Notes under the pieces: generated by a model
Database searches by the model: none
What the model was told of the DNA's origin: nothing
The model's input: only the letters and a program-made list of their open reading frames with translations
Assembly: GCA_014874475.1 (NCBI GenBank)
Contig: JADBJJ010000022.1
Span: 1 to 64,000 of the forward strand
Origin: Chloroflexota bacterium
GTDB taxonomy: Bacteria; Chloroflexota; Anaerolineae; B4-G1; DUEL01
Direction: 5' to 3'
Length of the DNA stretch: 64,000 nucleotides
Part shown: positions 4,663-18,879 of the stretch, one piece after another
How positions within the stretch are numbered: the first letter of the stretch is position 1
Layout: every line of letters begins with the position of its first letter
Program-made: the position numbers and the translations under genes

Positions 4663-7491
4663 TTATGACGAACTGACATCCACCGCTATCCGCTGGCCGC
4701 GAATGCGGACGGAGAAAGCCAGCCGCCGCCAGTGGGCAGGCAGGCAGGGGGTCAGAGTGGGGCTCCCATTGCAAACCTCCAGTCCGGCAAAGCCAAAGAC
4801 CAGTGCCTGCCAAAGGCCTCCCGCCGTCGCAGCGTGGAAGCCATCAGCGGCATTCCCGCGCAAATCTTCCAGGTCGGTCAGCGCCGCGTGCATAAAATGC
4901 CGATATGCCGCCTCCGAGTCCCCCATCCGGGCTGCCAGCAGGGCATGAATGGACGGCCCCAGCGAAGAGCCGTAAGAAAGGTCCGTACGCGGAGTGTAGT
5001 ACTCCCAGTTCCGGCGCAACACCTCCGGTTCGTACCGATCCCGCAACATATAGAGGAGCATCAACAGGTCCGGTTGCTTCAAGACCTGATACCGCTGAGT
5101 CCCCTCTATGCCCAGAATGACCTGCATAGAGACGCTCCGGGGCTCGTAGGCGCTCAGGTCAATATCCTCCCGGTCAAAAAAGCCCTCAAACTGCTCTATC
5201 AGCCCACTTTCCGGGTCGTAGGGGATGTAGAGGTGCTCAATGACGTGGGCCCATTGGCGCAGCACCTCCTCGGTCAGGCCCAGGCGGGACTGCAGGTCGG
5301 CGGCTTTCTGAGGGGCCATCTCCCGGAGCCACGCCAGCACTTCCAGCGCGGCTTCCAGGTTCCAGCGGGCCATCCCGTTGGTGTAGGCATTGTTGTCCAC
5401 GTGCTCGTGGTACTCGTCTGGCCCGATGACATCCCGAATCTCGTAGCGGCTGCGCTCTTCGTTCCAGCAGGCGCGCGAGGCCCAGAAGCGGGCCGTATCC
5501 AGGACGATTTCGGCCCCGTAGTCCCGCATAAAGTCATCATCACCCGTGACCCGCCAGTACTGGACGACAGCATAAGCGACGTCGGCGGTGATGTGGTCCT
5601 CAATGTCGCCGCACCAGATGCGGACCAAGTCGCCATTTGGGGCAGGGACCCAGCGGGGGGTGGTCTCATCGCCGGTGTCGGCCGATTCCCAGGCATACAT
5701 GGCGCCCTCGTAGCCATGCCGCTGGGCCTTGCGCCGCGCGCCGGGGAGCGTGTGGTAGCGATACATCAGCAGGCTGCGGGCGATTTCCGGACGGGTGAAA
5801 GTAAAGAAGGGCAGGATGAAGGTGTCCGTGTCCCAGAAGACGTGGCCCCGGTAGCCGAAGCCGCTGAGCGTCCTGGCAGGGATGCTCACCCGGTCGTCGT
5901 GGCGGGGGGCCGCGATAAGCAACTGGAAAAGGCTGTGGCGGACGGCCTGCTGGGCCCGGTCGTCGCCCTCAATGACGACATCGCAGGCCTCCCACTCCCG
6001 CGCCCACGCGGCCTCATGGGCCGCGCGCAGGTCGTCGTAGGGCTGGGCAACGGCCTCCTCCAGTGCCGCAAGCGCTGCCTTCTGGACGTCGGAGACCTCT
6101 CGGCTCGTGTAGAGGGCCACCCGTTTCTCCACCACCAGCGTTTCGCCAGGGCGGACTGTCGTCCGGGCCACCACCGCCGGAGCGTTCTCGCAGTCGGTCC
6201 AGGTGTAGGTAACCTCTCCCGGCGCAGCGACGGTCAGGTGAGCCGCCATACAGGCCTCTATGCCGGAGTGACAGGTACGGGTGTTCAGGTAGACCGCCTG
6301 CGGCCCGACGGCCCCCTGATCTACCAGTTGCCAGTGATAGAGTTCAGGATTAAAGGAGTACCCGTTCAGCCCGGCCCGTAGTTCGGTCGTCCCGGTGAAG
6401 TCCAGCACAGTGATCCGCTGGCGGATGACCAGCAGGTGGGGGTTATCCAGACTGGCGAAGCGCTCTATCTTCAGGTCAACAGTGTGCCCGGCGGGACTCC
6501 GCCAGCGCACCAGGCGGGTGAGGACCCCCGTCCGCAGGTCCAGTTCCCGGTGGTAAGCCAGAACAGTCCCCCGGTCCAGCCGGAACCGTTCACCCTCCAC
6601 AATGAGGGTCAAGGGAAGCCAGTTGGGGAAGTTGACCAGTTCGGTGTAGAAGAGAGGGTGGTCGTCAAAGACGCCGTGGACGAGAGTGGCGGGGGTATCA
6701 CCGGGGTATCCTTCCTCAAAAGTGCCGCGCGTTCCCAGATAGCCATTGCCAATGGTGAAGACCGTCTCCATCTGGCGCAGGCGGTCGGGCCGAAACTCCG
6801 CCTCCCTGATGTGCCAGGTATCGGTGGGGAGAGATTCCGCCGGGACGGGGAACCGGGAGAGAATGCTCGCCAAAGTGACGCCTTCCAGGGACGGAAGAAG
6901 GACGTGGGCGGTGCCCACGCGCGCGTCAGGCCCCAGCCCGACGGCCCAGAAGCCGCCGGCCAGGGCAGCCTCCACACCCGCAGCCGCGTCCTCCACCACC
7001 ACCGCCTCTTCTGGCGCCACGCCCAGAACTTGCGCACAGTGCAGGAAGAGGTCGGGGGCAGGCTTGGTCCGCTCCACACTATAGCCGTCCGAGACAGCAT
7101 CGGCCAGGGACCAGAGGTCCAGGCGATCCAGGACGGTGCGGGTGTTCTTGCTGGCAGAGGCGATGCCGACTTTCAGGCCAGCCTGACGGATTTCCCGAAG
7201 AAGGTCCAGCGCGCCGGGGAGAAGGTCGTCGGGAGTAAGGGCTTCCAGGGACTCCACGTAATAGCGGTTCTTGCGCTCCATCCACTGCTCCATCTGGGCC
7301 TCGGTGGCAGGGCGGCCATCCAGGAGAAGTTCCAGGGAGCGGCGGCGGGAGACACCGCGCAGGGCCTCGTTGCGCCTGCGGTCAAAGGGGATGCCCAATT
7401 CGTCGGCCAGCCGCTTCCAGGCGCGGTAGTGGTATTCAGAAGTATCGGTCAGGACGCCGTCCAGGTCAAAGATGAAGGCTTTGATCCTCAT
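4663..7491 (-). CDS. Beta-phosphoglucomutase fused to GH65 disaccharide phosphorylase
   Basis: One 942-aa polypeptide. Residues 1-220 are a HAD-family beta-phosphoglucomutase, with nucleophile and acid/base in FDLDGVLTDT (Asp9, Asp11) and a GRPATEAQMEQ cap. Residues 221-942 are a glycoside hydrolase family 65 phosphorylase, with TIGNGYLGTRG near its start and IGPDEYHEHV around Glu693, the expected general acid. The pair would phosphorolyse an alpha-glucobiose (maltose, trehalose, kojibiose or nigerose) to glucose and beta-glucose 1-phosphate, then convert the latter to glucose 6-phosphate. I start at the ATG at 7491 because the HAD fold begins there; upstream codons encode no domain. It lies between the LacI gene and the binding-protein gene. 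Exact substrate unknown. Confidence 0.9.
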   Translation of the reverse strand: MRIKAFIFDLDGVLTDTSEYHYRAWKRLADELGIPFDRRRNEALRGVSRRRSLELLLDGRPATEAQMEQWMERKNRYYVESLEALTPDDLLPGALDLLREIRQAGLKVGIASASKNTRTVLDRLDLWSLADAVSDGYSVERTKPAPDLFLHCAQVLGVAPEEAVVVEDAAAGVEAALAGGFWAVGLGPDARVGTAHVLLPSLEGVTLASILSRFPVPAESLPTDTWHIREAEFRPDRLRQMETVFTIGNGYLGTRGTFEEGYPGDTPATLVHGVFDDHPLFYTELVNFPNWLPLTLIVEGERFRLDRGTVLAYHRELDLRTGVLTRLVRWRSPAGHTVDLKIERFASLDNPHLLVIRQRITVLDFTGTTELRAGLNGYSFNPELYHWQLVDQGAVGPQAVYLNTRTCHSGIEACMAAHLTVAAPGEVTYTWTDCENAPAVVARTTVRPGETLVVEKRVALYTSREVSDVQKAALAALEEAVAQPYDDLRAAHEAAWAREWEACDVVIEGDDRAQQAVRHSLFQLLIAAPRHDDRVSIPARTLSGFGYRGHVFWDTDTFILPFFTFTRPEIARSLLMYRYHTLPGARRKAQRHGYEGAMYAWESADTGDETTPRWVPAPNGDLVRIWCGDIEDHITADVAYAVVQYWRVTGDDDFMRDYGAEIVLDTARFWASRACWNEERSRYEIRDVIGPDEYHEHVDNNAYTNGMARWNLEAALEVLAWLREMAPQKAADLQSRLGLTEEVLRQWAHVIEHLYIPYDPESGLIEQFEGFFDREDIDLSAYEPRSVSMQVILGIEGTQRYQVLKQPDLLMLLYMLRDRYEPEVLRRNWEYYTPRTDLSYGSSLGPSIHALLAARMGDSEAAYRHFMHAALTDLEDLRGNAADGFHAATAGGLWQALVFGFAGLEVCNGSPTLTPCLPAHWRRLAFSVRIRGQRIAVDVSSS

Positions 7492-7637
7492 CTGGGCAGT
7501 TCTCCGGGTTTGTGGTATAATCACAGCGCGCGAAGCCCTCGCCCGCACTCTGGGTGAGTGGGCATCGCTGCGTCGGGCAGGGGCCGGCAGTCTCCTGGCC
7601 CGGGACAGGCCCCTGCTCGGAAATCTCATCCTGAAGG

Positions 7638-7662
7638 GCCAGACACTTTCAAAGTGCCTGGC
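7638..7662. repeat. Palindrome overlapping the end of the module 1 lacI gene
   Basis: CCAGACACTTT (7639-7649), a central C, and AAAGTGCCTGG (7651-7661) form a near-perfect palindrome with one mismatch. The stop codon and last residues (KCQAL) of the LacI protein are encoded within it, suggesting that a mobile palindrome or terminator arm replaced the original 3' end. There is no clear T-tract after it. Confidence 0.6.
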
Positions 7663-8689
7663 ATTTTCCGCTGGATTCCCGCACAATCAGCCGGGGCAAA
7701 AGGAGCACCCTCCGCTCCGGCAGCGGTTCCCCCCGAATCAACCTCAGAAGCATCTGCACCACATTCGCCCCGACCTCCGCGATCGGCTGGCGGACGGTGG
7801 TCAAGGGCGGATGGAGGTACTGGGCCATCGGCACATCGTCAAACCCCACGACCGAGACGTCCCGGCCAGGCTGGAGCCCGGCCTCGTAGAGGGCGTTCAT
7901 CGCGCCGATGGCCATCAGGTCACTCATCGTTACCACAGCGGTGGGGCGACGGTCGGGCGGCAGGGCCAGCAGGGCCTGCATCGCCTGACGACCGGCGGCC
8001 TCTGCGTGCTCCGTCCGGACAATCCATGCCGGGTCCACCGGAAAACCGGCTGCCGCCATCCCCTCCAGGTAACCCTGAAGGCGGTAACTGCCGGTGAGGG
8101 AATCTTCCGGCCAGGCAATAACGGCAATCCGCCGGTGGCCCAGTTCTACCAGATGCTCCACAGCCATCCGGGTCCCCGCCGCGTTGTCCACGTCCACGTA
8201 GGGGAAGTCCCATTCCTCATTGGCGCGCCCGAAAGCGACGAAGGGGAAATCGCGGTCCAGGAGGTAGCGAACGCGCGGGTCGTTCCGGTTCGTTTCAGAG
8301 AGGATGAAACCGTCCACCCGACCGGTGAGCATCAGTTCCTGGTAGGGAAGCCAGGGGTTGCCGTCAGTGGGTTGAGCGAAGGTAAGGATGTGGTACCCTT
8401 CCGTCTCAGCGGCCTGGGCCATACTGTACAGGAAGGGGTCCAGGATGGGATGCCAGTGGTCGCGGGGGACGTGGTGCCAGGAATAACCGATGATGTGGCT
8501 CTGGCGGGCGCGCAGACTGCGGGCCAGGGCGCTGGGGCGGTAGCCCAGTTCGGCGGCAGCCGCCAGGACCCGGGCGCGGGTCTCCTCGCTGATAGGGGCG
8601 CTCTCGTTGAGGACGTAGGAGACGGTGGCGATGGAGACCCCCGCGCGGCGGGCGACATCCCGGATAGTGGGCATAGAATTCTTAGCCAT
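7649..8689 (-). CDS. LacI-family transcriptional repressor (module 1)
   Basis: DNA-binding repressor of 346 aa. The N-terminal helix-turn-helix TIRDVARRAGVSIATVSYVL is followed by the hinge YRPSALARSLRARQSHIIGY and a periplasmic-binding-protein-like effector domain (VSVVGFDDVPMAQYLHPPLT). ATG at 8689. Two copies of a TTGAAACGTTTCAA-like operator lie between its promoter and start codon, so it is probably autoregulated. A perfect copy of the same operator precedes the sucrose-phosphate-synthase-like gene at 11246, which puts that operon in the same regulon by inference. It is the first gene of the operon that continues into the GH65 fusion and transporter. The effector sugar is unknown. Confidence 0.9.
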   Translation of the reverse strand: MAKNSMPTIRDVARRAGVSIATVSYVLNESAPISEETRARVLAAAAELGYRPSALARSLRARQSHIIGYSWHHVPRDHWHPILDPFLYSMAQAAETEGYHILTFAQPTDGNPWLPYQELMLTGRVDGFILSETNRNDPRVRYLLDRDFPFVAFGRANEEWDFPYVDVDNAAGTRMAVEHLVELGHRRIAVIAWPEDSLTGSYRLQGYLEGMAAAGFPVDPAWIVRTEHAEAAGRQAMQALLALPPDRRPTAVVTMSDLMAIGAMNALYEAGLQPGRDVSVVGFDDVPMAQYLHPPLTTVRQPIAEVGANVVQMLLRLIRGEPLPERRVLLLPRLIVRESSGKCQAL

Positions 8690-8691
8690 AG

Positions 8692-8705
8692 TTGAAACGT
8701 TTCAA
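8692..8705. promoter_or_regulatory. LacI-type operator O1 at the repressor start codon
   Basis: Perfect 14-bp palindrome TTGAAACGTTTCAA two bases from the lacI start codon. It is identical to the operator at 11263-11276. Central CG and flanking half-sites match LacI/GalR-family operators. Binding here would block transcription of the repressor operon. Confidence 0.8.
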
Positions 8706-8732
8706 TTCTTGGGTAAAAAAAAGCCGTCTGGG

Positions 8733-8746
8733 CTTAAACGTTTCAA
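8733..8746. promoter_or_regulatory. LacI-type operator O2 next to the -10 box
   Basis: CTTAAACGTTTCAA, an imperfect copy of the operator at 8692-8705 with changes only in the left half-site. It lies a few bases downstream of the -10 box, with centres 41 bp from O1 (about four helical turns), so paired binding or looping is possible. Confidence 0.7.
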
Positions 8747-8751
8747 CTCAT

Positions 8752-8780
8752 ATTATACACCTATTTGCACCGTTTGTCAA
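8752..8780 (-). promoter_or_regulatory. Promoter of the module 1 lacI operon
   Basis: Minus strand: -35 TTGACA (8775-8780), 17-bp spacer, -10 TATAAT (8752-8757), both consensus. The two operators lie directly downstream. The upstream PfkB gene ends at 8792, so the promoter is packed into the intergenic gap. Confidence 0.85.
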
Positions 8781-8791
8781 GAGGTCGCGGC

Positions 8792-9745
8792 CTATTTCTT
8801 TATCGCTTTTTCTTCCGCATCCAGTTCGGTGTAGATTTCCCCCCGGTCAATCTTCGCCGGAAACGGGCCGACAACGGCCAGTTTCCGGACGGCCACCCGC
8901 TGCGCGAAGCGGACACAGCGGACCGGCGGGTTGCCGTCCAGAAAAGCGATCAGAAATCCGGCCCAGAAGGCATCACCAGCACCGGTAGCATCCACGACCG
9001 AGACTGGCAGCGAAGGGATGTGCTGGATCCGTCCCCCTTCGGAGAGGAGGACCCCTTCGGCTCCCATCGTCAGCACCACAATGGAAGGGCCCAGGTCGTG
9101 GAAACGCTGGATGTAGCCCTCCGGGGTGAGGTTGGGCCCGAAAAGCCGTCGGGCATCGTCCAGGGACGGTTTGGTCAGGGTTGCCAGGGCCAGCGCCTGC
9201 CAGATGACCTGCATCGCTTCTTCCCGGTCCGGCCAGATGCGCGGGCTGTAGTTCGGGTCCACTGAGACGACGCGCCCCCATTCCCGTCCCAACCGAAGGG
9301 CCCGCAGGACGGCCTGACGGGCCGGTGGGCGGGAAAGCGCAAACGCAGACCCGTGGACCGCGCGGGACCGGATGATGGCTTCTTCGGGGACCTGCTCCGG
9401 TCCCAGATGATGGTCTCCATCCCGATAGGCCAGAAAGTCCGGCGTTCCCTGGGTGTGGGAGACAAAGATGACCGTGGTCTGAACGGAGGGGTTTACCACC
9501 AAGTACTCGCAGAGGACGCCCGCTGCCTCCAGTTCAGCGCGCAGAAAGTGTCCGAAGGGGTCATCGCCGATACAGGCGGCCAGGGCGGCCCGACCTCCCA
9601 GCCGGGCCATATTGGCGGCGATGTTGGCCGGGGAGCCCCCTGCGTGCATCCGAAAAGTACGCGCCCCCCGCAACGAGACGGTTTCTTCCAGCGAGATCAG
9701 GTCCACCAGCGCTTCACCAACGGCCAGCAGGTCCAGGTCACTCAT
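8792..9745 (-). CDS. PfkB-family sugar kinase, probably fructokinase
   Basis: Cytoplasmic ribokinase/PfkB-family kinase, 317 aa. The N-terminal signature MHAGGSPANIAANMARLGG and the C-terminal catalytic signature VVDATGAGDAFWAGF (catalytic Asp in GAGD) are both intact. I use the ATG at 9745: the gene then begins MSDLDLLAVGEALVDLI, the normal family start, and overlaps the upstream glycosyltransferase stop by eight bases. Pairing with a sucrose-phosphate-synthase-like enzyme suggests fructose as substrate, as in sps-frk clusters of other bacteria. That specificity is inferred from context; the family also includes kinases for other sugars and nucleosides. Confidence 0.85.
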   Translation of the reverse strand: MSDLDLLAVGEALVDLISLEETVSLRGARTFRMHAGGSPANIAANMARLGGRAALAACIGDDPFGHFLRAELEAAGVLCEYLVVNPSVQTTVIFVSHTQGTPDFLAYRDGDHHLGPEQVPEEAIIRSRAVHGSAFALSRPPARQAVLRALRLGREWGRVVSVDPNYSPRIWPDREEAMQVIWQALALATLTKPSLDDARRLFGPNLTPEGYIQRFHDLGPSIVVLTMGAEGVLLSEGGRIQHIPSLPVSVVDATGAGDAFWAGFLIAFLDGNPPVRCVRFAQRVAVRKLAVVGPFPAKIDRGEIYTELDAEEKAIKK

Positions 9746-11246
9746 CGGATTCGTCTCCCCAGTACAGTTGGCGCAGTTCGTCCAGAGAGATGTCGTTCTC
9801 GGGCCGCGGGTCCTGAAAGTAAGGCGGGATGGGCAGCAGGGCATCCGTCGGACCGGGGCGAGGGGTGCTCAGAACCCGCTGGATAACGGTCAGGTATCCC
9901 TCAGCGGTGCGCTCCCAGGTGTAGCGGGCCAGGACTCGCTCCTGCCCCCGGCGGGCGAACTCCTCCCAGGCTCCGGGGCTCTCCAGAAGCCGCAACAGGC
10001 CCCGGGCGATGTCGGCGGGATCGGCGGGGTCCACCAGGACACCGTACTCCTCCCCGTCCTCCTGCCAGATTTCAGCGGGCCCGCCGCTCCGGGTGACGAC
10101 CACCGGCAACCCGGTCGCGGCGGCCTCCAAGGGGGCCAGGCCGAAGGGCTCGTACCAGGCCGTCAGTGCGAAGACGGAGCGGCGCCGAGCCAGCAACCGG
10201 TAGGCCGCCGCCAGCGCCGATTGCCCCGCCAGGGCCACCGTGCTCACTTCGCCCCAGAGGCTGCGGCCCTGGACGACCTGCCGGATGCGCGCCAGAATCT
10301 CCCGTTCCACCGGGGTTCCCTCCTCCCGGCGGAGGGGGTCCTCCAGGTGGGCCGTAACCAGCAGCAGGTTGGCTCGTTCCCGCAGGGTCGGGCTTTCGGC
10401 GAAGGCCACTACCAGTCCCAGGTGGTTCTTCTTCGGCTCCAGTCGGCTGGAAGCGACGATACAGGGCAGATGACGGCGATCTTCCTGGATGTCCCGTTCC
10501 AGCGCGGCCAGAACCCGCTGGTGGATGGCCTCCTCATCGGGGGCCCGCGCCCTGGGGTCAAAGACGGTGGTATCCACCCCGGGCGGTATGAGGGCGAAGC
10601 GGCGGTCGTCTCCAACATCCACGGCGCCCCGGTAGGCCCGATGGCCGTACTGCTGAAACCGCTCCTGGCGGGTGCTGGTGATGTTGACGGCGGACCGGTT
10701 CATGCTGAGCCGCTCTGCCACCAGGCGGCGGGCGAAGTGGTAGCGGGCGTCCAGTTCGGGGAGATTCTCCGGAGTTGCGCCCAGTCCGTCCATCTTCTGG
10801 GCGCCCAGGGAGTGGGCGGTGAAGGTAAAGGGGATACCCGTCTCAGCGGCGATGAGGACGCCCGCCAAGCCGCCGTCTCCGTAGTGGGCCGTGAACGCGT
10901 CGGGGAAGCGGCCCTCCCGGCGGTAGAAATCCAGGATGCCCGGCACCCAGTCTGTGCCGATATAGGGCCAGAGATCTTCTTTGGGGAGAAAATGGTCCGG
11001 CCCGGCAGAGATCCGGACGATGCGGACGTTCGGCATGCCCGGATACCCATCCAGGAGGCCATCCAGCCCGGGCCACTGGGGATCCCGGATGTGGCGGGTG
11101 AGGATGTCCACCTGATGCCCCATCCGGCCCAGCGCCAGCGCGACCTGCTTAACGTAGACCAGTTGTCCGCCGAAATCGGGGTGCTGGGTCCAGTACCGAT
11201 CCTGCGGGTCAAAGTTTCCCTGTGGGTTCAGAAAAGCTAGGTGCAT
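9738..11246 (-). CDS. GT4 glycosyltransferase, sucrose-phosphate synthase-like
   Basis: A 502-aa retaining glycosyltransferase of family GT4. The N-terminal domain opens with LNPQGNFDPQDRYWTQHPDF, GGQLVYVKQVALALG and MGHQVDILTR, characteristic of sucrose-phosphate and mannosylfructose-phosphate synthases. The C-terminal nucleotide-sugar domain has ASSRLEPKKN and the E-x7-E motif in YEPFGLAPLEAAATGLP. It would transfer a hexose from a nucleotide sugar to fructose 6-phosphate, or act in sucrose breakdown if run in reverse. No separate sucrose-phosphate phosphatase is seen nearby. I start at ATG 11246 because in-frame codons further upstream come from the operator sequence. Cotranscribed with the PfkB kinase and controlled by the operator at 11263. 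Confidence 0.75.
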   Translation of the reverse strand: MHLAFLNPQGNFDPQDRYWTQHPDFGGQLVYVKQVALALGRMGHQVDILTRHIRDPQWPGLDGLLDGYPGMPNVRIVRISAGPDHFLPKEDLWPYIGTDWVPGILDFYRREGRFPDAFTAHYGDGGLAGVLIAAETGIPFTFTAHSLGAQKMDGLGATPENLPELDARYHFARRLVAERLSMNRSAVNITSTRQERFQQYGHRAYRGAVDVGDDRRFALIPPGVDTTVFDPRARAPDEEAIHQRVLAALERDIQEDRRHLPCIVASSRLEPKKNHLGLVVAFAESPTLRERANLLLVTAHLEDPLRREEGTPVEREILARIRQVVQGRSLWGEVSTVALAGQSALAAAYRLLARRRSVFALTAWYEPFGLAPLEAAATGLPVVVTRSGGPAEIWQEDGEEYGVLVDPADPADIARGLLRLLESPGAWEEFARRGQERVLARYTWERTAEGYLTVIQRVLSTPRPGPTDALLPIPPYFQDPRPENDISLDELRQLYWGDESDE

Positions 11247-11261
11247 AGTGTACTCCCGAGA

Positions 11262-11314
11262 ATTGAAACGTTTCAATCCCGGACCGTTATACCATTACCC
11301 GGGATTCTGTCAAG
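11262..11314 (-). promoter_or_regulatory. Promoter with LacI operator for the sucrose-type operon
   Basis: Minus strand: -35 TTGACA (11309-11314), 17-bp spacer, -10 TATAAC (11286-11291). The palindrome ATTGAAACGTTTCAAT (11262-11277) is placed over the likely transcription start. Its 14-bp core is identical to operator O1 at 8692, so the LacI protein encoded at 7649-8689 is the likely regulator. Confidence 0.85.
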
Positions 11315-11468: not shown

Positions 11469-11497
11469 TTGCCCTTTCGGGAAAAATGTGCTATGAT
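11469..11497 (+). promoter_or_regulatory. Promoter for the DUF362/polyferredoxin pair
   Basis: Plus strand: -35 TTGCCC (11469-11474), 17-bp spacer, -10 TATGAT (11492-11497), 21 bp before the ATG at 11519, with GGGGG as a possible ribosome binding site. The rest of the 11315-11468 gap shows nothing recognisable. Confidence 0.6.
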
Positions 11498-11518: not shown

Positions 11519-12535
11519 ATGAGTTCATTAGACCGTCGCGAATTCCTGCGTTATTGTGCTCTCGGGCTGGGCGCGCTGATCGGCGGGCCGGTGCTGGCCG
11601 CCTGCCGCCCCCGACCGTCACCAACCCCCGCGCCGGGACCTTCCTTCACCCCAATCCCAGCCTCCCCGACGCCGGGTTCTCCGGCAACCACCCCATCCTC
11701 TACCCCCTCGGCCTCCCTAACCACCGTACCCGAATACCCCCACCTGGCTGTGGCGCGCGGCGGGGAGCCGGAAGACCTGGTCCGGCGGGCGGTGGATGCC
11801 CTGGGCGGGATGGGGCGCTTCGTCCGCCCAGGGAATGACGTCATCATCAAGCCCAACATCTGCGTCGCCTACCACACCTACGAGTACGCCGCCACCACCA
11901 ACCCCTGGGTCGTCGGCGCACTGGTCCGGATGTGCTACGAGGCCGGCGCCCGGCAGGTGCGGGTGATGGACTACCCCTTCGGCGGGACGCCGGAAGAGGC
12001 CTACGCCCAAAGCGGTATTGCCGAACAGGTGCGCGCGGCCGGCGGCGAGATGGAGGTGATGGCCCGGTTCAAGTTCGTGGAGACGGAGATTCCAGAAGGG
12101 CTGGACCTGCGCCAGTGCGCCATCTACGAGGATATTCTGAAGGCCGATGTCGTCATCAATGTCCCCATCGCCAAGCACCACAGCCTGGCCCGGCTGACGC
12201 TGGGGATGAAGAATCTGATGGGGACCATCTGGGACCGTCCGGCGATGCACCGGAATCTGGGCCAACGGCTGGCGGACCTAACTTCCCGCATCCGCCCCAC
12301 CCTAACGGTGGTGGACGCGGTGCGCATCCTCACTGCCCACGGGCCGACAGGCGGCAATCTGGATGACGTGCGGAAACTGGATACCGTCATCGCCAGCCCG
12401 GACATCGTCGCCGCCGATGCCTTTGCGGCGACCCTCTTCGGCCTGAGGCCGGAGGACCTGAGCTACGTCCGCGCGGGGGCGACGATGGGGCTGGGCCGCT
12501 CCGACCTGGAGAACCTGCGTATCGCCGAAGTGTAG
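11519..12535 (+). CDS. DUF362 domain protein, Tat-exported lipoprotein
   Basis: 338 aa. The N-terminus carries a twin-arginine signal (RREFLRY) and a lipobox ending LAAC with Cys29 as lipid anchor, then a Pro/Ser/Thr linker to about residue 75. The rest is a DUF362 domain: NDVIIKPNICVAYHTYEYA, ADVVINVPIAKHHSLARLTL, GMKNLMG. DUF362 proteins often occur with ferredoxin-like partners and are suspected of metal or redox roles, but no biochemical function is established. ATG at 11519 is chosen because the Tat signal starts there. The polyferredoxin gene follows after 31 bp, so they are probably co-expressed and work together at the outer face of the membrane. Confidence 0.85.
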   Translation: MSSLDRREFLRYCALGLGALIGGPVLAACRPRPSPTPAPGPSFTPIPASPTPGSPATTPSSTPSASLTTVPEYPHLAVARGGEPEDLVRRAVDALGGMGRFVRPGNDVIIKPNICVAYHTYEYAATTNPWVVGALVRMCYEAGARQVRVMDYPFGGTPEEAYAQSGIAEQVRAAGGEMEVMARFKFVETEIPEGLDLRQCAIYEDILKADVVINVPIAKHHSLARLTLGMKNLMGTIWDRPAMHRNLGQRLADLTSRIRPTLTVVDAVRILTAHGPTGGNLDDVRKLDTVIASPDIVAADAFAATLFGLRPEDLSYVRAGATMGLGRSDLENLRIAEV

Positions 12536-12566
12536 CGCCAGATTCATCTGGTGCCCCATTCAGCGA

Positions 12567-14096
12567 ATGAGAAAGGGTTCTCTTTCCCGCATCCGACGGC
12601 CATCCGCCCTCTGGCTCCGCCGGGGTATCCAGTTCGGCACCCTGGTCGCGTTCCTGGTCCTGCTGGTGGCTGCCCGGCGAGGCGGCGCGCCGCCGTCGCT
12701 GGCGAACCTGCCGATGCGGCTGGACCCGCTGACAACGCTGGCTCATGCCATCGCCGCGCGCGTCCTCCTGCCCGGTTCGGCCCTGGCCCTGCTGACCCTG
12801 GCGCTGACCCTGCTCTTTGGCCGGGCTTGGTGTGGGTGGCTCTGCCCCCTGGGGACGCTGCTGGATGCTGTCCCTTCACCCCGCTCCGCTGTCCGGCGGA
12901 CCTTCCCGGAGACCTGGCGCCGCGCCAAGCACTTCCTCTGGCTGACCCTCCTGGCGGCCGCTCTGCTGGGCAATCTGACCCTGCTGGTGCTGGACCCGCT
13001 GACTCTGGTCATCCGGACCTTCGGGGCCGCCCTCTGGCCGGCTCTGGAGCGGATGGTGACGGCCGCCGAAGTGGCCGCGTACGCGCTCCCGCCCCTGCGC
13101 CCAGCAGTGGAGGCGCTGGACCGTCTCCTGCGCCCGGCAGTTTTCCCCGTGGAGGCACCCTTCTACCGCGCGCCCGTCCTCTACGCCCTGGTCCTGGGGA
13201 CGGTCCTCGCCCTCAACGGGCTGGCTCCCCGGTTCTGGTGCCGGTACCTTTGTCCGCTGGGGGGACTGCTGGGGCTGGTGAGCAAAGTCGGCCTGGTTCG
13301 CCGGGAGGTCACGCCAGCCTGCACCCACTGCGGCGCCTGCGCGCGGGTCTGCCCCACGGGGACAATCCGCCCGGACCGGGACTACGCCAGCGACCCGGCA
13401 GAGTGCACAATGTGCCTGGAATGCCGGGAGGCCTGTCCATACAAGGCCATCCGTTTCCCGGCCCGTCCGGCTCTGGCGCCGATGGAGGCCTACGACCCGG
13501 ACCGGCGGACAGCGCTGGCGGCGCTGGGAGTGGCCGCTCTGGGCATCGCCCTCTTTCGCAGCGACCGCTTCACCCGCCGGTCGCCGCTGATCCGACCGCC
13601 GGGCGCCCGGGAGAACCATCTCACGGCCCGATGCGTCCGCTGCGGGCTCTGTGTCCGGGCCTGTCCGACAGGCGCCATCCAACCGGCGCTCCTGGAGGGT
13701 GGGCTGGAGTCCCTCTGGACGCCGGTGCTCATCCCCCGCCTGGGATACTGCGACTACTCCTGCAACGCCTGCGGCCAGGTCTGTCCGGTGGAGGCCATCC
13801 CGCCGCTGCCGCTGGAGGAGAAGCGGCGAGCCGTGCTGGGGCGGGCCTACATAGACCGCAATCGCTGCATTCCCTGGGCCGACCACCGCCCGTGCATCGT
13901 CTGCGAAGAGATGTGCCCGGTGCCGGAGAAGGCCATTGTCCTGGAAGAGGTCACGGTAACCGATGCGACAGGCCAACCGGTGACCGTGCAGCGGCCGCGT
14001 GTGGTAGAGGAACGGTGCATCGGCTGCGGCATCTGTGAATATAAATGCCCGGTGAGCGGCGAGGCCGCCATCTGGGTTTCCGCTGTGGAGGGCTGA
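12567..14096 (+). CDS. NapH/MauN-like membrane polyferredoxin
   Basis: 509 aa. The N-terminal half has several membrane segments and two NapH-type motifs, WCGWLCPLG and WCRYLCPLG. The C-terminal half holds at least four clear CxxCxxC-type [4Fe-4S] motifs (CTHCGACARVCP, CTMCLECREACP, CVRCGLCVRACP, CIGCGICEYKCP) and two variant ones (SCNACGQVCP, CIVCEEMCP). It probably carries electrons between a quinone or cytoplasmic donor and a partner protein. The DUF362 lipoprotein just upstream is the obvious partner. Much longer than NapH itself (about 290 aa) because of the added ferredoxin domains. The redox substrate is not evident. Confidence 0.85.
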   Translation: MRKGSLSRIRRPSALWLRRGIQFGTLVAFLVLLVAARRGGAPPSLANLPMRLDPLTTLAHAIAARVLLPGSALALLTLALTLLFGRAWCGWLCPLGTLLDAVPSPRSAVRRTFPETWRRAKHFLWLTLLAAALLGNLTLLVLDPLTLVIRTFGAALWPALERMVTAAEVAAYALPPLRPAVEALDRLLRPAVFPVEAPFYRAPVLYALVLGTVLALNGLAPRFWCRYLCPLGGLLGLVSKVGLVRREVTPACTHCGACARVCPTGTIRPDRDYASDPAECTMCLECREACPYKAIRFPARPALAPMEAYDPDRRTALAALGVAALGIALFRSDRFTRRSPLIRPPGARENHLTARCVRCGLCVRACPTGAIQPALLEGGLESLWTPVLIPRLGYCDYSCNACGQVCPVEAIPPLPLEEKRRAVLGRAYIDRNRCIPWADHRPCIVCEEMCPVPEKAIVLEEVTVTDATGQPVTVQRPRVVEERCIGCGICEYKCPVSGEAAIWVSAVEG

Positions 14097-14104
14097 AACG
14101 CGGG

Positions 14105-15346
14105 TCATCCCGCGCTCAACTGGCCAAATAGCCGGAGATAATCGGCCAGGTAGCGGGTGGTGAGGAAGTGCCGCCGGACATGCTCCCGGCCCGCCGTCCC
14201 CATCCGTCGGACCTCCTCCGGGCGGCGGAGCAGGTAGAGAATCCGGTCGGCGCATTCCTCCACGCTGTTCACTAAAAAGCCCGTCTCCCCATCTATCACC
14301 TGTAGCGGGATGCCGCCCACGTTACCACCCACCACCGGCTTCCCCTTCCAGAGGGCCTCTGCCACCACCAGCCCGAACCCTTCCCGCAGCGACTTCTGCA
14401 CCACCACATCGGCAGCGGTCTGGAACGCGTTCACCTCCCGGTTCCCCACCCCGTGGAAGTTGTGGAGGATGAAGATGTCGTAGTCCTCCCCAGCGTAGCG
14501 GATGGTCCGGTCCAGGTAGGTCCACCCCTCTGGATCGTCCGCCGCCATAGAGCCGACCAGCGCCAGTTGTACCTTGGGCACCTCCTGCTTCACCCGTCGG
14601 TACGCGTCTATCACCCCCAGCGGGTCCTTCCAGGGGTCAAACCGGCTCACCTGGACGATGAGGGGACGACGGACGTCCACACCGAACCGGGCCACTGTCC
14701 GCCGGGCCTCCTCTATGCCCATGGGGACGTTCTTGGGAGAGAGGGGGTCAATGGTCGGCGGTATTATCGCCAGGTGCCGAAAGGCCACCCCCGGCCCTAC
14801 GTACTCCCGCATAGTGAAAATAGCGGCATCGTACTGGGAGATGTACGGCACAAAGAACTCCCAGTAGAGAGGATTGGGCTGGGAGGTATCTATGTGGCAG
14901 CGCCAAATCCAGTGCTTCCCCCCTGCGCGGCCGTGATAGTGGAGGAGTCCGGCGGGCTGGGGGTCATGGACGATGATGAAGTCGTACTCCCCCTCCAGAC
15001 GGCGGGCATTGGCCTGGTTGTACCGCTGCCAGATGGCCTTCATCTCGTCGGTGAAGGGGATGTCCATCCCCTGGAGGCCGTTGTGGCAGGCCTTGGTGAC
15101 GTTGAAGAATTCGTCCGCGCCCTCAATGACCTGCCAGTGGGCATCCAGGCCCACATCCCGCATCAGCGGGACCAGCGTCTGGAGGATTTCCGCCACCCCG
15201 CCTCCATAGGCGGTGGCGTTGATATGCACGACGCGCGCGCCCCGGAGGGGCTCCCCCAGGGCGCGGATTTCGGCGATAGCCTCTTCGCCCACGATGAGGC
15301 GGTAATCGTCCAGTCGTTTCTCAGAAACAGGGACTTGTGGCAGCAA
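14105..15346 (-). CDS. treT: Trehalose glycosyltransferring synthase (TreT)
   Basis: 413 aa GT4 enzyme. TreT reversibly converts trehalose plus NDP to NDP-glucose plus glucose. The sequence shows HINATAYGGGVAEILQTLVP and VHDPQPAGLLHY in the acceptor domain, and QVSRFDPWKDP plus the E-x7-E motif of SLREGFGLVVAEALWKGKPV in the donor domain, all characteristic of TreT. The start is a TTG at 15346 with AGGAGGAACCC before it; there is no nearby ATG. It lies 24 bp after the module 2 permease stop, so imported trehalose would be handed straight to it. The same transporter-treT pairing is known in Thermococcales. Alternative annotation would be trehalose phosphorylase. Confidence 0.88.
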   Translation of the reverse strand: MLPQVPVSEKRLDDYRLIVGEEAIAEIRALGEPLRGARVVHINATAYGGGVAEILQTLVPLMRDVGLDAHWQVIEGADEFFNVTKACHNGLQGMDIPFTDEMKAIWQRYNQANARRLEGEYDFIIVHDPQPAGLLHYHGRAGGKHWIWRCHIDTSQPNPLYWEFFVPYISQYDAAIFTMREYVGPGVAFRHLAIIPPTIDPLSPKNVPMGIEEARRTVARFGVDVRRPLIVQVSRFDPWKDPLGVIDAYRRVKQEVPKVQLALVGSMAADDPEGWTYLDRTIRYAGEDYDIFILHNFHGVGNREVNAFQTAADVVVQKSLREGFGLVVAEALWKGKPVVGGNVGGIPLQVIDGETGFLVNSVEECADRILYLLRRPEEVRRMGTAGREHVRRHFLTTRYLADYLRLFGQLSAG

Positions 15347-15370
15347 GGGTTCCTCCTGTAATCTTGGATT

Positions 15371-16228
15371 TTATCCCTTCACCGACCCGGCCAGGATGCC
15401 CCGGACGAAGTAGCGCTGGAGAGCGAAGAAGACCAGCAGGGGCACGGCCATAGAGACGAAGGCCGCCGCCGTCAATAGATGCCAGTCCTGCCCCAGCGAT
15501 TGCACCATCGCAGAGAGCCGCAGCGTCAGCGGGGCCACCTTCTCCGTCCCGCCCAGGTAAATCAGCGCGACCAGCAGGTCGTTCCAGACCCAGATGAACT
15601 GGAAGATGGCCAGCGATGCCAGCGACGGGACGGATAGCGGCAGCGCCAGGCGGGTGAAGGCGGTCAGCGGCGAGGCGCCGTCCAGATAAGCCGCCTCAAA
15701 AAGGTCCTTGGGTAACGAGCCAAAGAAATTCCGCAACAGGTAGACCGCGAAGGGCAGACCGTAGCCGGTATGGGCCAGCCAGATGCCCAGGAAGGTCCCC
15801 GAAAGCCCAACCTGGTTGTAGATGCGCAGGAGGGGGATGAGCGTCATCTGGAGGGGCACCACCAGCAGCCCAACTACGATGACGAACAGGACCTGACGGC
15901 CAGGGAAGTTCATCCAGGCAAAGGCATATCCGGCGAAGGCCGCGATGGTGATGGGGATGACGGTGGACGGAATCACAATGGTCAGGCTGTTCAGAAACGC
16001 CCGCCCCAGCCCCTGCGCGGTCAGGACCTGGATGTAGTTATCCAGCCGGAACTGGGAGAAATCCAGCGGGAACTGGAAGACGGCCCACCAACCGGTGGCG
16101 AAGACAGCATCTTTGGGCCGGAAGGAACTGACCAGCAGGCCGACCGTCGGCAACAGCCAGAGAAGGCAAAGGCCAATGATGGCCAGATGGAGGGAGAATC
16201 GCGCAAGAACCTGGCGCACTATGCTCAT
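15371..16228 (-). CDS. Sugar ABC transporter permease, MalG type (module 2)
   Basis: 285 aa, about six membrane segments (first: FSLHLAIIGLCLLWLLPTVG), coupling loop FEAAYLDGASPLTAFTRLALP. C-terminus ALQRYFVRGILAGSVKG is typical of MalG-type CUT1 permeases. ATG at 16228 overlaps the MalF-type stop by four bases (ATGA), a sign of translational coupling. Followed by treT. With the MalF-type partner and the binding protein it forms the membrane core of a trehalose or maltose importer; the substrate is inferred from treT. Confidence 0.88.
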   Translation of the reverse strand: MSIVRQVLARFSLHLAIIGLCLLWLLPTVGLLVSSFRPKDAVFATGWWAVFQFPLDFSQFRLDNYIQVLTAQGLGRAFLNSLTIVIPSTVIPITIAAFAGYAFAWMNFPGRQVLFVIVVGLLVVPLQMTLIPLLRIYNQVGLSGTFLGIWLAHTGYGLPFAVYLLRNFFGSLPKDLFEAAYLDGASPLTAFTRLALPLSVPSLASLAIFQFIWVWNDLLVALIYLGGTEKVAPLTLRLSAMVQSLGQDWHLLTAAAFVSMAVPLLVFFALQRYFVRGILAGSVKG

Positions 16229-17205
16229 CGTATCTCCTCCTGGGCCTGGAAGCGGCGGATGTTCGCCGCCATTACCGGGACGATGGCCAGCAGCAGGATG
16301 ACGGCGATAGCGCTGGCCCGTCCGAAGTTCAGAAACGAGAACATCTCCTTGTACATCCGGTTGGCGATGACCTCGGTCCCGCGCGTGCCGTTGGTCATCA
16401 CGAAGACGATGTCAAAGGCCTTCAGAGCGTTGATGATCACCGTCGTCGCCACCACTGCCACGGTGGAACCGATCATCGGCACTGTGATTTGCCAGAAGAT
16501 GCGCCACTCACTGGCACCGTCCACCCGTGCCGCCTCCAGAATCTCCCGGGGGATGGCCTTGAGGGCGGCGGAGAGAATCACCATGCAGAAGCCCGTCTGC
16601 AGCCAGATGCCGACCGCGATGAGGGCGAAGTTGTTGACCGCCGTATCCACTAACCATCCCATTGGCCGCTCCCCCAGAGCGACGATCACCGCGTTCAGCA
16701 GACCAATCTGGGGGACGTTGGCCGGCTTGTAGGCGTAGACAAAGCGCCAGATGACGCTGGCGCCCACAAACGAGATCGCCATAGGCAGGAAAATGACGGA
16801 TTTGGCGAGGGGTTCATAGCGTACCCGGTCCACCAGAACGGCGATGACCAGCCCCAGCCCGACGCTGAAGGTGGTCATCAGAACAATCCAGAGGAGATTA
16901 TTGCGGAAGGCAATGCGCATTTCGGGCGAGGTGAGCGTCCAGAGATAGTTCTGGAGCCCGACGAACTGCTCCGATTTGGCGTCAAAGAAACTTAAGTAGA
17001 GGGTCTGCAGAGTGGGATAGACCAGGTAGAAGCCCAGGATAAGGAGGGCGGGCCCGATGTAGGCCCAGGGGCGCACTCTGGGCTGCAGGCGCTGGGGGAG
17101 CAGGCCGACCAGGAAATCCAGCCCCAGGAAAAGGCCGGCGATGCCCGCGACCCCCAAAAGGATAGCGGCCAGCGTGGCGAGCACTTGGGAGACCAACTCG
17201 CTCAT
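16225..17205 (-). CDS. Sugar ABC transporter permease, MalF type (module 2)
   Basis: 326 aa. Two N-terminal hydrophobic segments (VLATLAAILLGVAGIAGLF and the one beginning YIGPALLILGFYLV) precede the usual six-helix core, so it has one more membrane segment than the MalF proteins of modules 1 and 3. Coupling loop ILEAARVDGASEWRIFWQITVP. ATG at 17205 with GGAGGAACGC upstream. ATGA overlap with the MalG-type gene downstream. Confidence 0.87.
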   Translation of the reverse strand: MSELVSQVLATLAAILLGVAGIAGLFLGLDFLVGLLPQRLQPRVRPWAYIGPALLILGFYLVYPTLQTLYLSFFDAKSEQFVGLQNYLWTLTSPEMRIAFRNNLLWIVLMTTFSVGLGLVIAVLVDRVRYEPLAKSVIFLPMAISFVGASVIWRFVYAYKPANVPQIGLLNAVIVALGERPMGWLVDTAVNNFALIAVGIWLQTGFCMVILSAALKAIPREILEAARVDGASEWRIFWQITVPMIGSTVAVVATTVIINALKAFDIVFVMTNGTRGTEVIANRMYKEMFSFLNFGRASAIAVILLLAIVPVMAANIRRFQAQEEIR

Positions 17206-17300
17206 GCGTTCCTCCGACAGAACGGGAAGCCTCCTGCAGGCTTTGAACTACGGATGCGCGCTGCCAGCCCGCGCGTCATCCTGCATCCGACAGGATGGGG

Positions 17301-17333
17301 AGCCCCCCGCAGGCTCTGAGCCTGCGGGAGGCT
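17301..17333. repeat. Strong hairpin between binding-protein and permease genes (module 2)
   Basis: AGCCCCCCGCAGGCT (17301-17315) and AGCCTGCGGGAGGCT (17319-17333) pair over 15 bp with one mismatch and a 3-nt loop. It is in the 150-bp gap between the binding-protein stop (17355) and the MalF start (17205). A second, weaker inverted repeat (CGGATGC...GCATCCG, about 17251-17289) lies beside it. There is no T-run on the transcribed strand, so read-through to the permeases is likely. Confidence 0.7.
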
Positions 17334-17354
17334 TTCGCGCTCACGTTTCACGAC

Positions 17355-18707
17355 TTACTTCTTGTAAGCATCCAGCGCACTGGTCTCAATCGCCTGGAGC
17401 ACCGCGTCCAGGTCCTTCCCGCCGACGTAGTCCATCACGCCGGTCCAGAACGACCCAGCACCGACGGCGGCGGGCATCAGGTCGGAGCCGTCAAAGCGGA
17501 AGACCTCGGCGCCGGCCAGAATCTGGGCCTGTTTGCGGGTCAGTTCATCCGGATAGGTGTTGGGGTCCACGCCCCGGTGCGGGGAGATGAAGCCACCCCG
17601 GGCGGCCCAAATCTCGTGCGGCTTGGGCGAGGCCAGGTACTGGATGAACGCCCGGGCTTCGGGGGTGTCGTTGAGCATCACTACCACGTCGCCCGCACCC
17701 AGCGCCGGAACGCCCCACTGAGGGTCAATGGACGGGAAGGCGAAGACATCGTAGTCCTCTCCGGCCTGCACGCCCTGGGGGAAGAAGCCAGTGATGAAGG
17801 AGGCCTGCCGGTGCATGTAGCAGCCGGGGGGCGTGTCAAAGAGGGGGCGCGGGGAATCGCCGAAGTTGGTGCTCAGCACGCCCGTCGTGCCGCCCCAGAC
17901 GTACTGCTCATTGCGGGCGATCTGGCCGAAGAGTTCCCAGGCCCGTTGCACCGCCGAGTCGGTCCAGGGGATTTCGTGGTTGACCCACTGGTCGTAGACC
18001 TCGGGACCGGCGGTGCGGAGCATAATGTCTTCAATCCAGTCGGTGCCGGGCCAGCCGCTGGCCGCGCCGCTCTCCAGCCCGATGCACCAGGGCGTCCCGC
18101 CGTCGGCCACAATCTGGTCCGAGAGGGCGATCATCTCGTCCCAGGTGGTGGGCACCTGGTAGCCTTTCTCCTGGAACGCCTTGGGGTTGTACCAGACCAG
18201 GCTCTTCAGGGCGCCCTTGAACCAGATGCCATAGAGGTGGCCGTCGTAACTGCCCAGGTCAATCCAGGCCTGCGCGTAGTCCTTCTTCAACTGGTCCATA
18301 TCCACGATGTTCTCCAGTGGGACCAGCGCGCCCATCTTGGCCAGGTCCACCAGCAGACCGGGCTGGGGGAGAATGGCGATGTCTGGGGGATTGCCCGCCT
18401 GGACCCGGGTGACCAGGACCGTGGCCTGCTCGCGGGAGGTCTCAAAGGCCATGCCGATGCCCGTCTCTTTGGTGAAGGGCTCCACGGCGGCGGCGAAGGC
18501 CTCAAACTCGGAGCCGCCCCACACGCCCAGCACGGTGACTGCACCTTTGGGGGCGGGAACAGGGACGGGAACGGTGACCTCTACCGGCACTTCCACCGTC
18601 TCCTTCACGGGAACGGTGACGGTGACCGTCTGGGGAGCGCAGCCGGCCAGGACCAGGCCGACCACCACCAGAGCGGTCAGGGAGAATCCAACGATACGCC
18701 GAGACAT
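17355..18707 (-). CDS. Extracellular sugar-binding lipoprotein (module 2)
   Basis: 450 aa solute-binding protein. Signal peptide MSRRIVGFSLTALVVVGLVL with lipobox LAGC, lipid anchor at Cys23, then the same CAPQTVTVTVPVKETV tether as module 1. The mature domain is family 1 (VTVLGVWGGSEFEAFAAAVE, WDEMIALSDQIVADGG, IEDIMLRTAGPEVYDQW), resembling alpha-glucoside binding proteins (AglE-like). I start at ATG 18707 because the signal peptide begins there and AGGAGGAAAGAG precedes it; an upstream in-frame ATG adds 21 residues that look non-coding. It sits between the LacI gene and the permeases. Confidence 0.9.
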   Translation of the reverse strand: MSRRIVGFSLTALVVVGLVLAGCAPQTVTVTVPVKETVEVPVEVTVPVPVPAPKGAVTVLGVWGGSEFEAFAAAVEPFTKETGIGMAFETSREQATVLVTRVQAGNPPDIAILPQPGLLVDLAKMGALVPLENIVDMDQLKKDYAQAWIDLGSYDGHLYGIWFKGALKSLVWYNPKAFQEKGYQVPTTWDEMIALSDQIVADGGTPWCIGLESGAASGWPGTDWIEDIMLRTAGPEVYDQWVNHEIPWTDSAVQRAWELFGQIARNEQYVWGGTTGVLSTNFGDSPRPLFDTPPGCYMHRQASFITGFFPQGVQAGEDYDVFAFPSIDPQWGVPALGAGDVVVMLNDTPEARAFIQYLASPKPHEIWAARGGFISPHRGVDPNTYPDELTRKQAQILAGAEVFRFDGSDLMPAAVGAGSFWTGVMDYVGGKDLDAVLQAIETSALDAYKK

Positions 18708-18879
18708 CTCTCTTTCCTCCTGAATTGGAATGGGGTTAGGGATACTATAGACGGATCGCGAACAGTTCACCGGTAAAGCGACGATTCACATTCAGCGCCC
18801 GATACCACCTCCTCTCCGAACAAAATGAGTAAGTACCTACTCTTTCTGTTTTGACGGTTAGATCAACGTCAACGCTCGC

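Follow-up and report, generated by a model that had tools for sequence, protein, structure and literature searches.

The window, a stretch of 64,000 nucleotides analysed by computation throughout, contains two neighboring genes on the same strand, separated by 31 bp. The first codes for a protein of the DUF362 family and the second for a polyferredoxin, hereafter PFD (Table 1). The DUF362 product matches PF04015 over residues 108-304 of 338 (E 6.6e-46), with a score of 157.3 bits against a gathering cut-off of 24 bits and positions 1-199 of the 200-position profile covered, which makes it a member of the family. Its N terminus, MSSLDRREFLRYCALGLGALIGGPVLAAC, combines a twin-Arg motif with the lipobox LAAC and is followed by a Pro/Thr-rich linker and, last, by one DUF362 domain. 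The mechanically called open reading frame starts at 11486, and the ATG at 11519 was taken as the start because the signal peptide fits there. The twin-Arg motif and the Cys residue at the end of the signal are present in all 23 orthologs with a readable N terminus, four of which have a lipobox that falls outside the regular expression and was identified by eye. In a second set of orthologs, 53 of the 57 rows fit the twin-Arg pattern, three others have RK and one is without its N terminus; a single row of that set, L157, lacks the lipobox. TatC was found in this genome. A reading made earlier from the sequence alone had proposed a Tat-exported DUF362 lipoprotein, and the family match and the signal conserved among orthologs bear this out, with export as a prediction. 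Neither a set of Fe-S ligands nor a recognised redox cofactor site was found in this DUF362 protein.

Table 1. Features of the DUF362-PFD locus and of the region around it (positions in the window; residues numbered in each protein)
Feature	Position	Strand	Basis
DUF362 Tat lipoprotein, 338 aa, LarA-N-domain fold	11519..12535	+	PF04015; AF2 model; structure search; conservation
Twin-arginine signal peptide with lipobox (DRREFLR...LAAC, Cys29)	11519..11605	+	Read from sequence; R6, R7 and C29 conserved in 23-row ortholog alignment
Invariant DUF362 residues: K111-P-N, D151, K219-x-H221-x9-K231-N, H244, D266, D295, D300			Conservation
NapH-NapG fusion polyferredoxin (PFD), 509 aa, five predicted membrane helices, 6 Cys quartets, 2 CX3CP motifs	12567..14096	+	
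PFD Cys quartets: 252/255/258/262; 280/283/286/290; 356/359/362/366; 395/399/402/406; 434/443/446/450; 484/487/490/494			
PFD CX3CP motifs: 89/93 and 225/229			
Internal twin-Arg (R313-R314) and low-hydropathy fifth membrane helix, Arg residues after: predicted Tat-dependent segment	13503..13565	+	Conservation; model; family precedent (PMC5449189)
Sugar-use genes flanking the pair: GH65-type enzyme fused to beta-phosphoglucomutase; LacI-type regulator; sugar kinase; sucrose-phosphate-synthase-like glycosyltransferase; TreT-like trehalose synthase	4663..11276 and 14105..18770	-	
ABC transporter genes in the sugar-use region			Read by eye

NapH-NapG fusion protein carrying a predicted internal Tat signal

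In profile searches PFD matched Fer4 families over their cut-offs. Its residues 219-297 are NapH-like and residues 320-504 NapG-like, both matches being under the cut-offs of the models; against the curated models it scored 88.6 bits for NapG (cut-off 269), 75.3 for MauM/NapG (178.85), 73.6 for NapH/MauN (213.05) and 64.8 for NapH (234). The 24 Cys residues that serve as cluster ligands form two quartets on the N-terminal side and four on the C-terminal side, and all 28 Cys residues of the quartets and CX3CP motifs are kept throughout a 71-row alignment, rows that stop short of a column being left aside, so that the sequence-only reading of a six-cluster polyferredoxin stands. Its description of the protein as NapH-like fits the N-terminal half, while the whole protein is a NapH-NapG fusion that carries the internal Tat signal R313-R314. 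These two Arg residues are found in 19 of 19 rows and, in a larger alignment, in 66 of the 68 rows that reach the column. In the structure model the fifth helix spans residues 313-331, and the NapG half is of low confidence, with 10-residue means of 32-67 across residues 331-460. The PDB matches of this model are chiefly two-cluster ferredoxin domains, aligned at approximately residues 235-311, and the matches listed include no NapH-like solved structure.

Proteins of this kind are already known. A PFD-type protein has been described whose membrane insertion takes both Sec and Tat and places the NapG half outside (Tooke et al., 2017; PMC5449189), and Chloroflexi homologues of this dual Sec-Tat polyferredoxin have been reported (PMC5449189). 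PFD resembles that family, represented by Q1NSB0 of MLMS-1, in being a NapH-NapG fusion with an RR pair before the fifth helix and with sets of [4Fe-4S] clusters that are predicted to be cytoplasmic and periplasmic. The family hallmarks present in PFD are the twin-Arg motif before the fifth helix, Arg after it, and the division of the quartets into two and four. In contrast, the earlier study deals with biogenesis, and DUF362 does not appear in its text, whereas a dedicated exported partner is added by the present analysis. PFD also resembles the NapGH and MauMN quinol dehydrogenases, with a membrane CX3CP module, two plus four clusters and a predicted role on the quinol side; the role of NapH towards quinol and the importance of the CX3CP motifs are discussed in PMC5928378. 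Unlike them, however, it is one fused chain that remains under the cut-offs of the NapG, NapH and MauM/NapG models, and genes for a nitrate reductase or an amine dehydrogenase do not recur beside it.

Co-occurrence of DUF362 and PFD

The gene-neighbourhood survey that had been suggested for the pair was run with loci and genomes retrieved by DUF362 alone, PFD being looked for afterwards. The two genes co-occur in 24 of 25 ortholog-bearing relatives, in seven of nine such genomes in a sample of the phylum and at 78 of 80 loci. Among 60 relatives, the DUF362 ortholog group was delimited by scores of at least 286 bits, against at most 102 bits for other DUF362 matches. The ortholog is present in 25 of these genomes and PFD in 27, 24 having both. 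Ortholog without PFD is the case of G009, a genome that is 83% complete. PFD was found in three genomes with no ortholog, G002, G024 and G052; it is cut by a contig end in G002 and G052, and no DUF362 ortholog was detected in G024, which is 93% complete. In G038 the ortholog is represented by contig-edge fragments only, and this genome was counted as ortholog-free. PFD is adjacent to the ortholog in 19 of the 25 relatives, and five of the remaining six genomes have it elsewhere. In an even sample of 301 genomes of the phylum, for which the best five or seven candidates per genome were scored, the ortholog was found in nine genomes and PFD in seven, all of them within the nine. Fisher tests, in which relatedness is ignored, gave p = 1.9e-12 for the 60 relatives and p = 8.7e-13.

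The third collection consisted of the best 80 of 378 genome-contig loci, retrieved by DUF362 and overlapping with the set of relatives. PFD follows downstream on the same strand in 70 of them, its start lies at the contig end in three more, and none occurs within the stretch in seven, of which five belong to genomes that have PFD elsewhere and two to genomes that do not; the 78 loci thus include the three cut at a contig end and the five with an unlinked PFD. Tandem DUF362 duplicates lie upstream of one PFD in L097, L120 and L125, and L175 has a divergent pair. At nine loci of other DUF362 paralogs (L063-L067 and L069-L072, five of them from this genome), PFD was found in none; L068, examined beside them, proved to be LarA.

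A third operon partner was sought by all-against-all comparison of the open reading frames of the 80 loci and was rejected, as only the DUF362-PFD pair recurs across them. Other families were present in at most five loci, save for overlapping-frame shadows of the pair. The sugar-use genes on either side, which lie on the opposite strand, were therefore treated as incidental. The position of the pair inside an unrelated sugar-use region might also be taken to mean that the two genes stay together through common descent or through horizontal transfer of a neutral neighborhood and not through joint function, and the mostly Chloroflexota origin of the loci points the same way. This is highly improbable, however: no other neighbor is conserved across the loci, PFD co-occurs with DUF362 when unlinked, the pair reaches Bacteroidota, and paralogous DUF362 loci are without PFD.

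The 80 loci are labelled Chloroflexota nearly throughout, with the cultured Pelolinea submarina among them. The records outside that phylum are one from Bacteroidota, one metagenome-assembled genome labelled Bathyarchaeota (L157), which is possibly misbinned, and the phyla published for PFD (PMC5449189). The Bacteroidota record, from a plasmid collection, is from Parabacteroides distasonis, where a DUF362 protein 41% identical to that of the window is followed 6 bp on by a 532-aa PFD that keeps all 28 Cys residues and the internal RR. Because that DUF362 protein has a twin-Arg signal and no lipobox, export rather than lipidation seems, on sequence grounds, to be the constant feature of the DUF362 partner.

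Fold and putative active-site residues of DUF362

An AF2 model was obtained for a 269-aa domain from 58 ortholog rows, with a mean pLDDT of 95.6. Compared with the PDB, it matched the N-terminal domain of LarA, as found in lactate and malate racemases, with Z scores of 15.4-19.0 over 202-209 residues (rmsd 2.5-3.1), the next unrelated fold being at Z 5.8. The 19 Foldseek matches at E of 0.001 or below are LarA-family entries, including 4nar, whose title names a Thermotoga protein only and whose LarA-like status follows from its place in the lists. The C-terminal domain of LarA is absent, since the model aligns to target residues up to 286 and the protein ends at residue 338. At the level of sequence, the profile-profile comparison of DUF362 with LarA was not significant, a broad DUF362 profile scored at most 3.9 bits on LarA, and sequence searches of the PDB returned no DUF362 relative and one weak match, a short-chain dehydrogenase. 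The homology of the two families is drawn from the structure comparison and from their common Pfam clan, CL0471, in which LarA appears as DUF2088 (PMC11770544). The weakest DUF362 match of this genome (L007; G000:C12:69678-70283), with 23.8 bits, is a LarA homolog (PF09861, 206.8 bits) and is, as judged from these scores, a sequence-level trace of that relation.

The motif K219-x-H221-x9-K231-N...H244 is invariant in 58 of 58 orthologs, and the motif is found in 96 of 97 broader DUF362 rows, the remaining row being cut. The spacing of H221-x9-K231 equals that of His174-x9-Lys184 in LarA, with H244 near the His200 position, and profile alignments, which are weak, place H221 on His174 and K231 on Lys184 ungapped. 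In LarA, His174 is the catalytic base, Lys184 holds the nickel-pincer nucleotide (NPN) and His200 is a nickel ligand (PMC11770544). The conservation of DUF362 reveals no invariant His near the place of LarA His108; single-His LarA homologs exist, and they retain the other His (PMC12611868).

DUF362 might be a LarA-like NPN enzyme: NPN tethered to K231 would accept hydride from a 2-hydroxyacid on the outer side of the membrane, PFD would take off the electrons, and the enzyme would be a dehydrogenase and not a racemase. The fold (Z 15-19), the ungapped H-x9-K match and the presence of LarC and LarE in this genome agree with this reading. It is nevertheless very unlikely. DUF362 has no LarA C-terminal domain, and none of its invariant residues is a His at the position of His108. 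The control Bacteroides ihuae, which has DUF362, gave no LarC match. Nine of the 25 ortholog genomes, namely G009, G010, G037, G039, G042, G045, G047, G057 and G058, lack both LarC and an above-cut-off LarE, with G057 being 96% complete. Because LarC and LarE make the cofactor for LarA, NPN was rejected as a general cofactor of DUF362, and this DUF362 probably does not use it in general, an absence test that is less than absolute given that some genomes, G007 for example, have LarA homologs without LarC. Both G007 and G010 have three or four LarA homologs, with LarC undetected and LarE matched below its cut-off only.

In another version, DUF362 would be an electron-coupled half of LarA, whose cofactor, a metal pincer not made by LarC or some other nucleotide, would be covalently held on the invariant Lys. 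The reaction would be hydride chemistry with an extracytoplasmic hydroxy- or oxo-acid as substrate, and the Sec-Tat PFD would connect the enzyme to the quinone pool. We consider this distinctly unlikely; if true, it would be an enzyme of a new class, serving respiration or electron disposal, common to Chloroflexota and gut Bacteroidota. Whatever its cofactor, DUF362 shares with LarA the N-domain fold and has a His-x9-Lys that would, from its spacing and the weak alignments, lie at the cofactor-lysine position, and it differs from LarA by its predicted export and by occurring where LarC and LarE were undetected.

A candidate two-gene membrane oxidoreductase

The recurrent adjacency of DUF362 and PFD suggests an electron-transfer enzyme that has so far not been described. 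In the reading that we favor and regard as fairly probable, the two proteins form a membrane oxidoreductase, with PFD as the connection between DUF362, an extracytoplasmic catalytic lipoprotein, and either the quinone pool or cytoplasmic ferredoxin. PFD would be a NapGH-type quinol dehydrogenase in a single chain. Its N-terminal part would be made of four Sec-inserted helices with the CX3CP motifs and two [4Fe-4S] clusters on the cytoplasmic side, and its C-terminal part, beginning with the fifth helix inserted via Tat, of an external NapG-like domain holding four [4Fe-4S] clusters. By homology, two clusters of PFD are thus predicted to be cytoplasmic and four to be on the outer face, where DUF362 is also predicted to reside as a separate Tat-exported, lipid-anchored catalytic subunit with a LarA N-domain and a Lys/His active site. 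We infer that this topology applies in the cell and that DUF362 and PFD are in contact. The cluster chain of PFD would carry electrons between DUF362 and the quinone pool (or cytoplasmic ferredoxin), and DUF362 would oxidise or reduce a small extracytoplasmic substrate. That the pair forms a redox module in the membrane, with DUF362 as its extracytoplasmic partner, had been put forward from the sequence alone; the strong and specific co-occurrence supports this, with the placement predicted from the conserved Tat features and the redox role deduced from the Fe-S side.

The pairing would be equally compatible with a role of DUF362 in assembly or anchoring. The protein might be a non-catalytic factor that matures, chaperones or anchors the extracytoplasmic cluster domain of PFD, and PFD would feed other periplasmic acceptors. 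That only two genes recur, no third acceptor gene being conserved at the 80 loci, and that they co-occur even when unlinked are compatible with such a factor. On the other hand, the invariant K-x-H-x9-K-N...H site on the fold of the LarA enzyme looks catalytic from its sequence, the tandem DUF362 duplicates beside one PFD better fit substrate diversification, and other DUF362 proteins are found at PFD-free loci, and we consider a maturation or anchoring factor unlikely.

For the oxidoreductase that we favor, PFD as the conserved partner of DUF362 is very probably an electron carrier. The literature searched, which left most subscription papers outside its scope, yielded no functional study of DUF362, PF04015 or COG2006, and two papers retrieved (PMC10892978 and PMC12423673) were rejected because both match DUF3623 and not DUF362. 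Neither the conserved two-gene module nor the active-site parallel between DUF362 and LarA was found in that literature, as far as the texts were accessible. DUF362 is a large prokaryotic family, and its recurrent pairing with PFD provides a handle on its function. A conserved partner, a fold that strongly matches that of a racemase using an exotic cofactor, and the occurrence of the pair in Parabacteroides distasonis together make that function testable with few experiments. The analysis also provides a candidate redox partner for the Sec-Tat polyferredoxin, a protein so far known for its mode of insertion.

The association of the domain with [4Fe-4S] clusters also takes another form. This genome encodes five further DUF362 paralogs, two of which have two [4Fe-4S] motifs in the same chain, and Fe-S motifs nested within DUF362 have been published (PMC7955657). 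DUF362 therefore meets [4Fe-4S] chains both in cis, in the proteins with built-in ferredoxin domains, and in trans, the clusters of the pair described here being in the membrane protein PFD. One paralog with nested 2[4Fe-4S] motifs (L064, on G000:C27) carries HIEAGYGGAIKN, which closely resembles the LarA motif HFFAGFSGGPKA, and it is a possible bridge between the two families. In L069, L070 and L071, from Chloroflexota relatives, the DUF362 domains lie within very long open frames of 1209-1339 aa.
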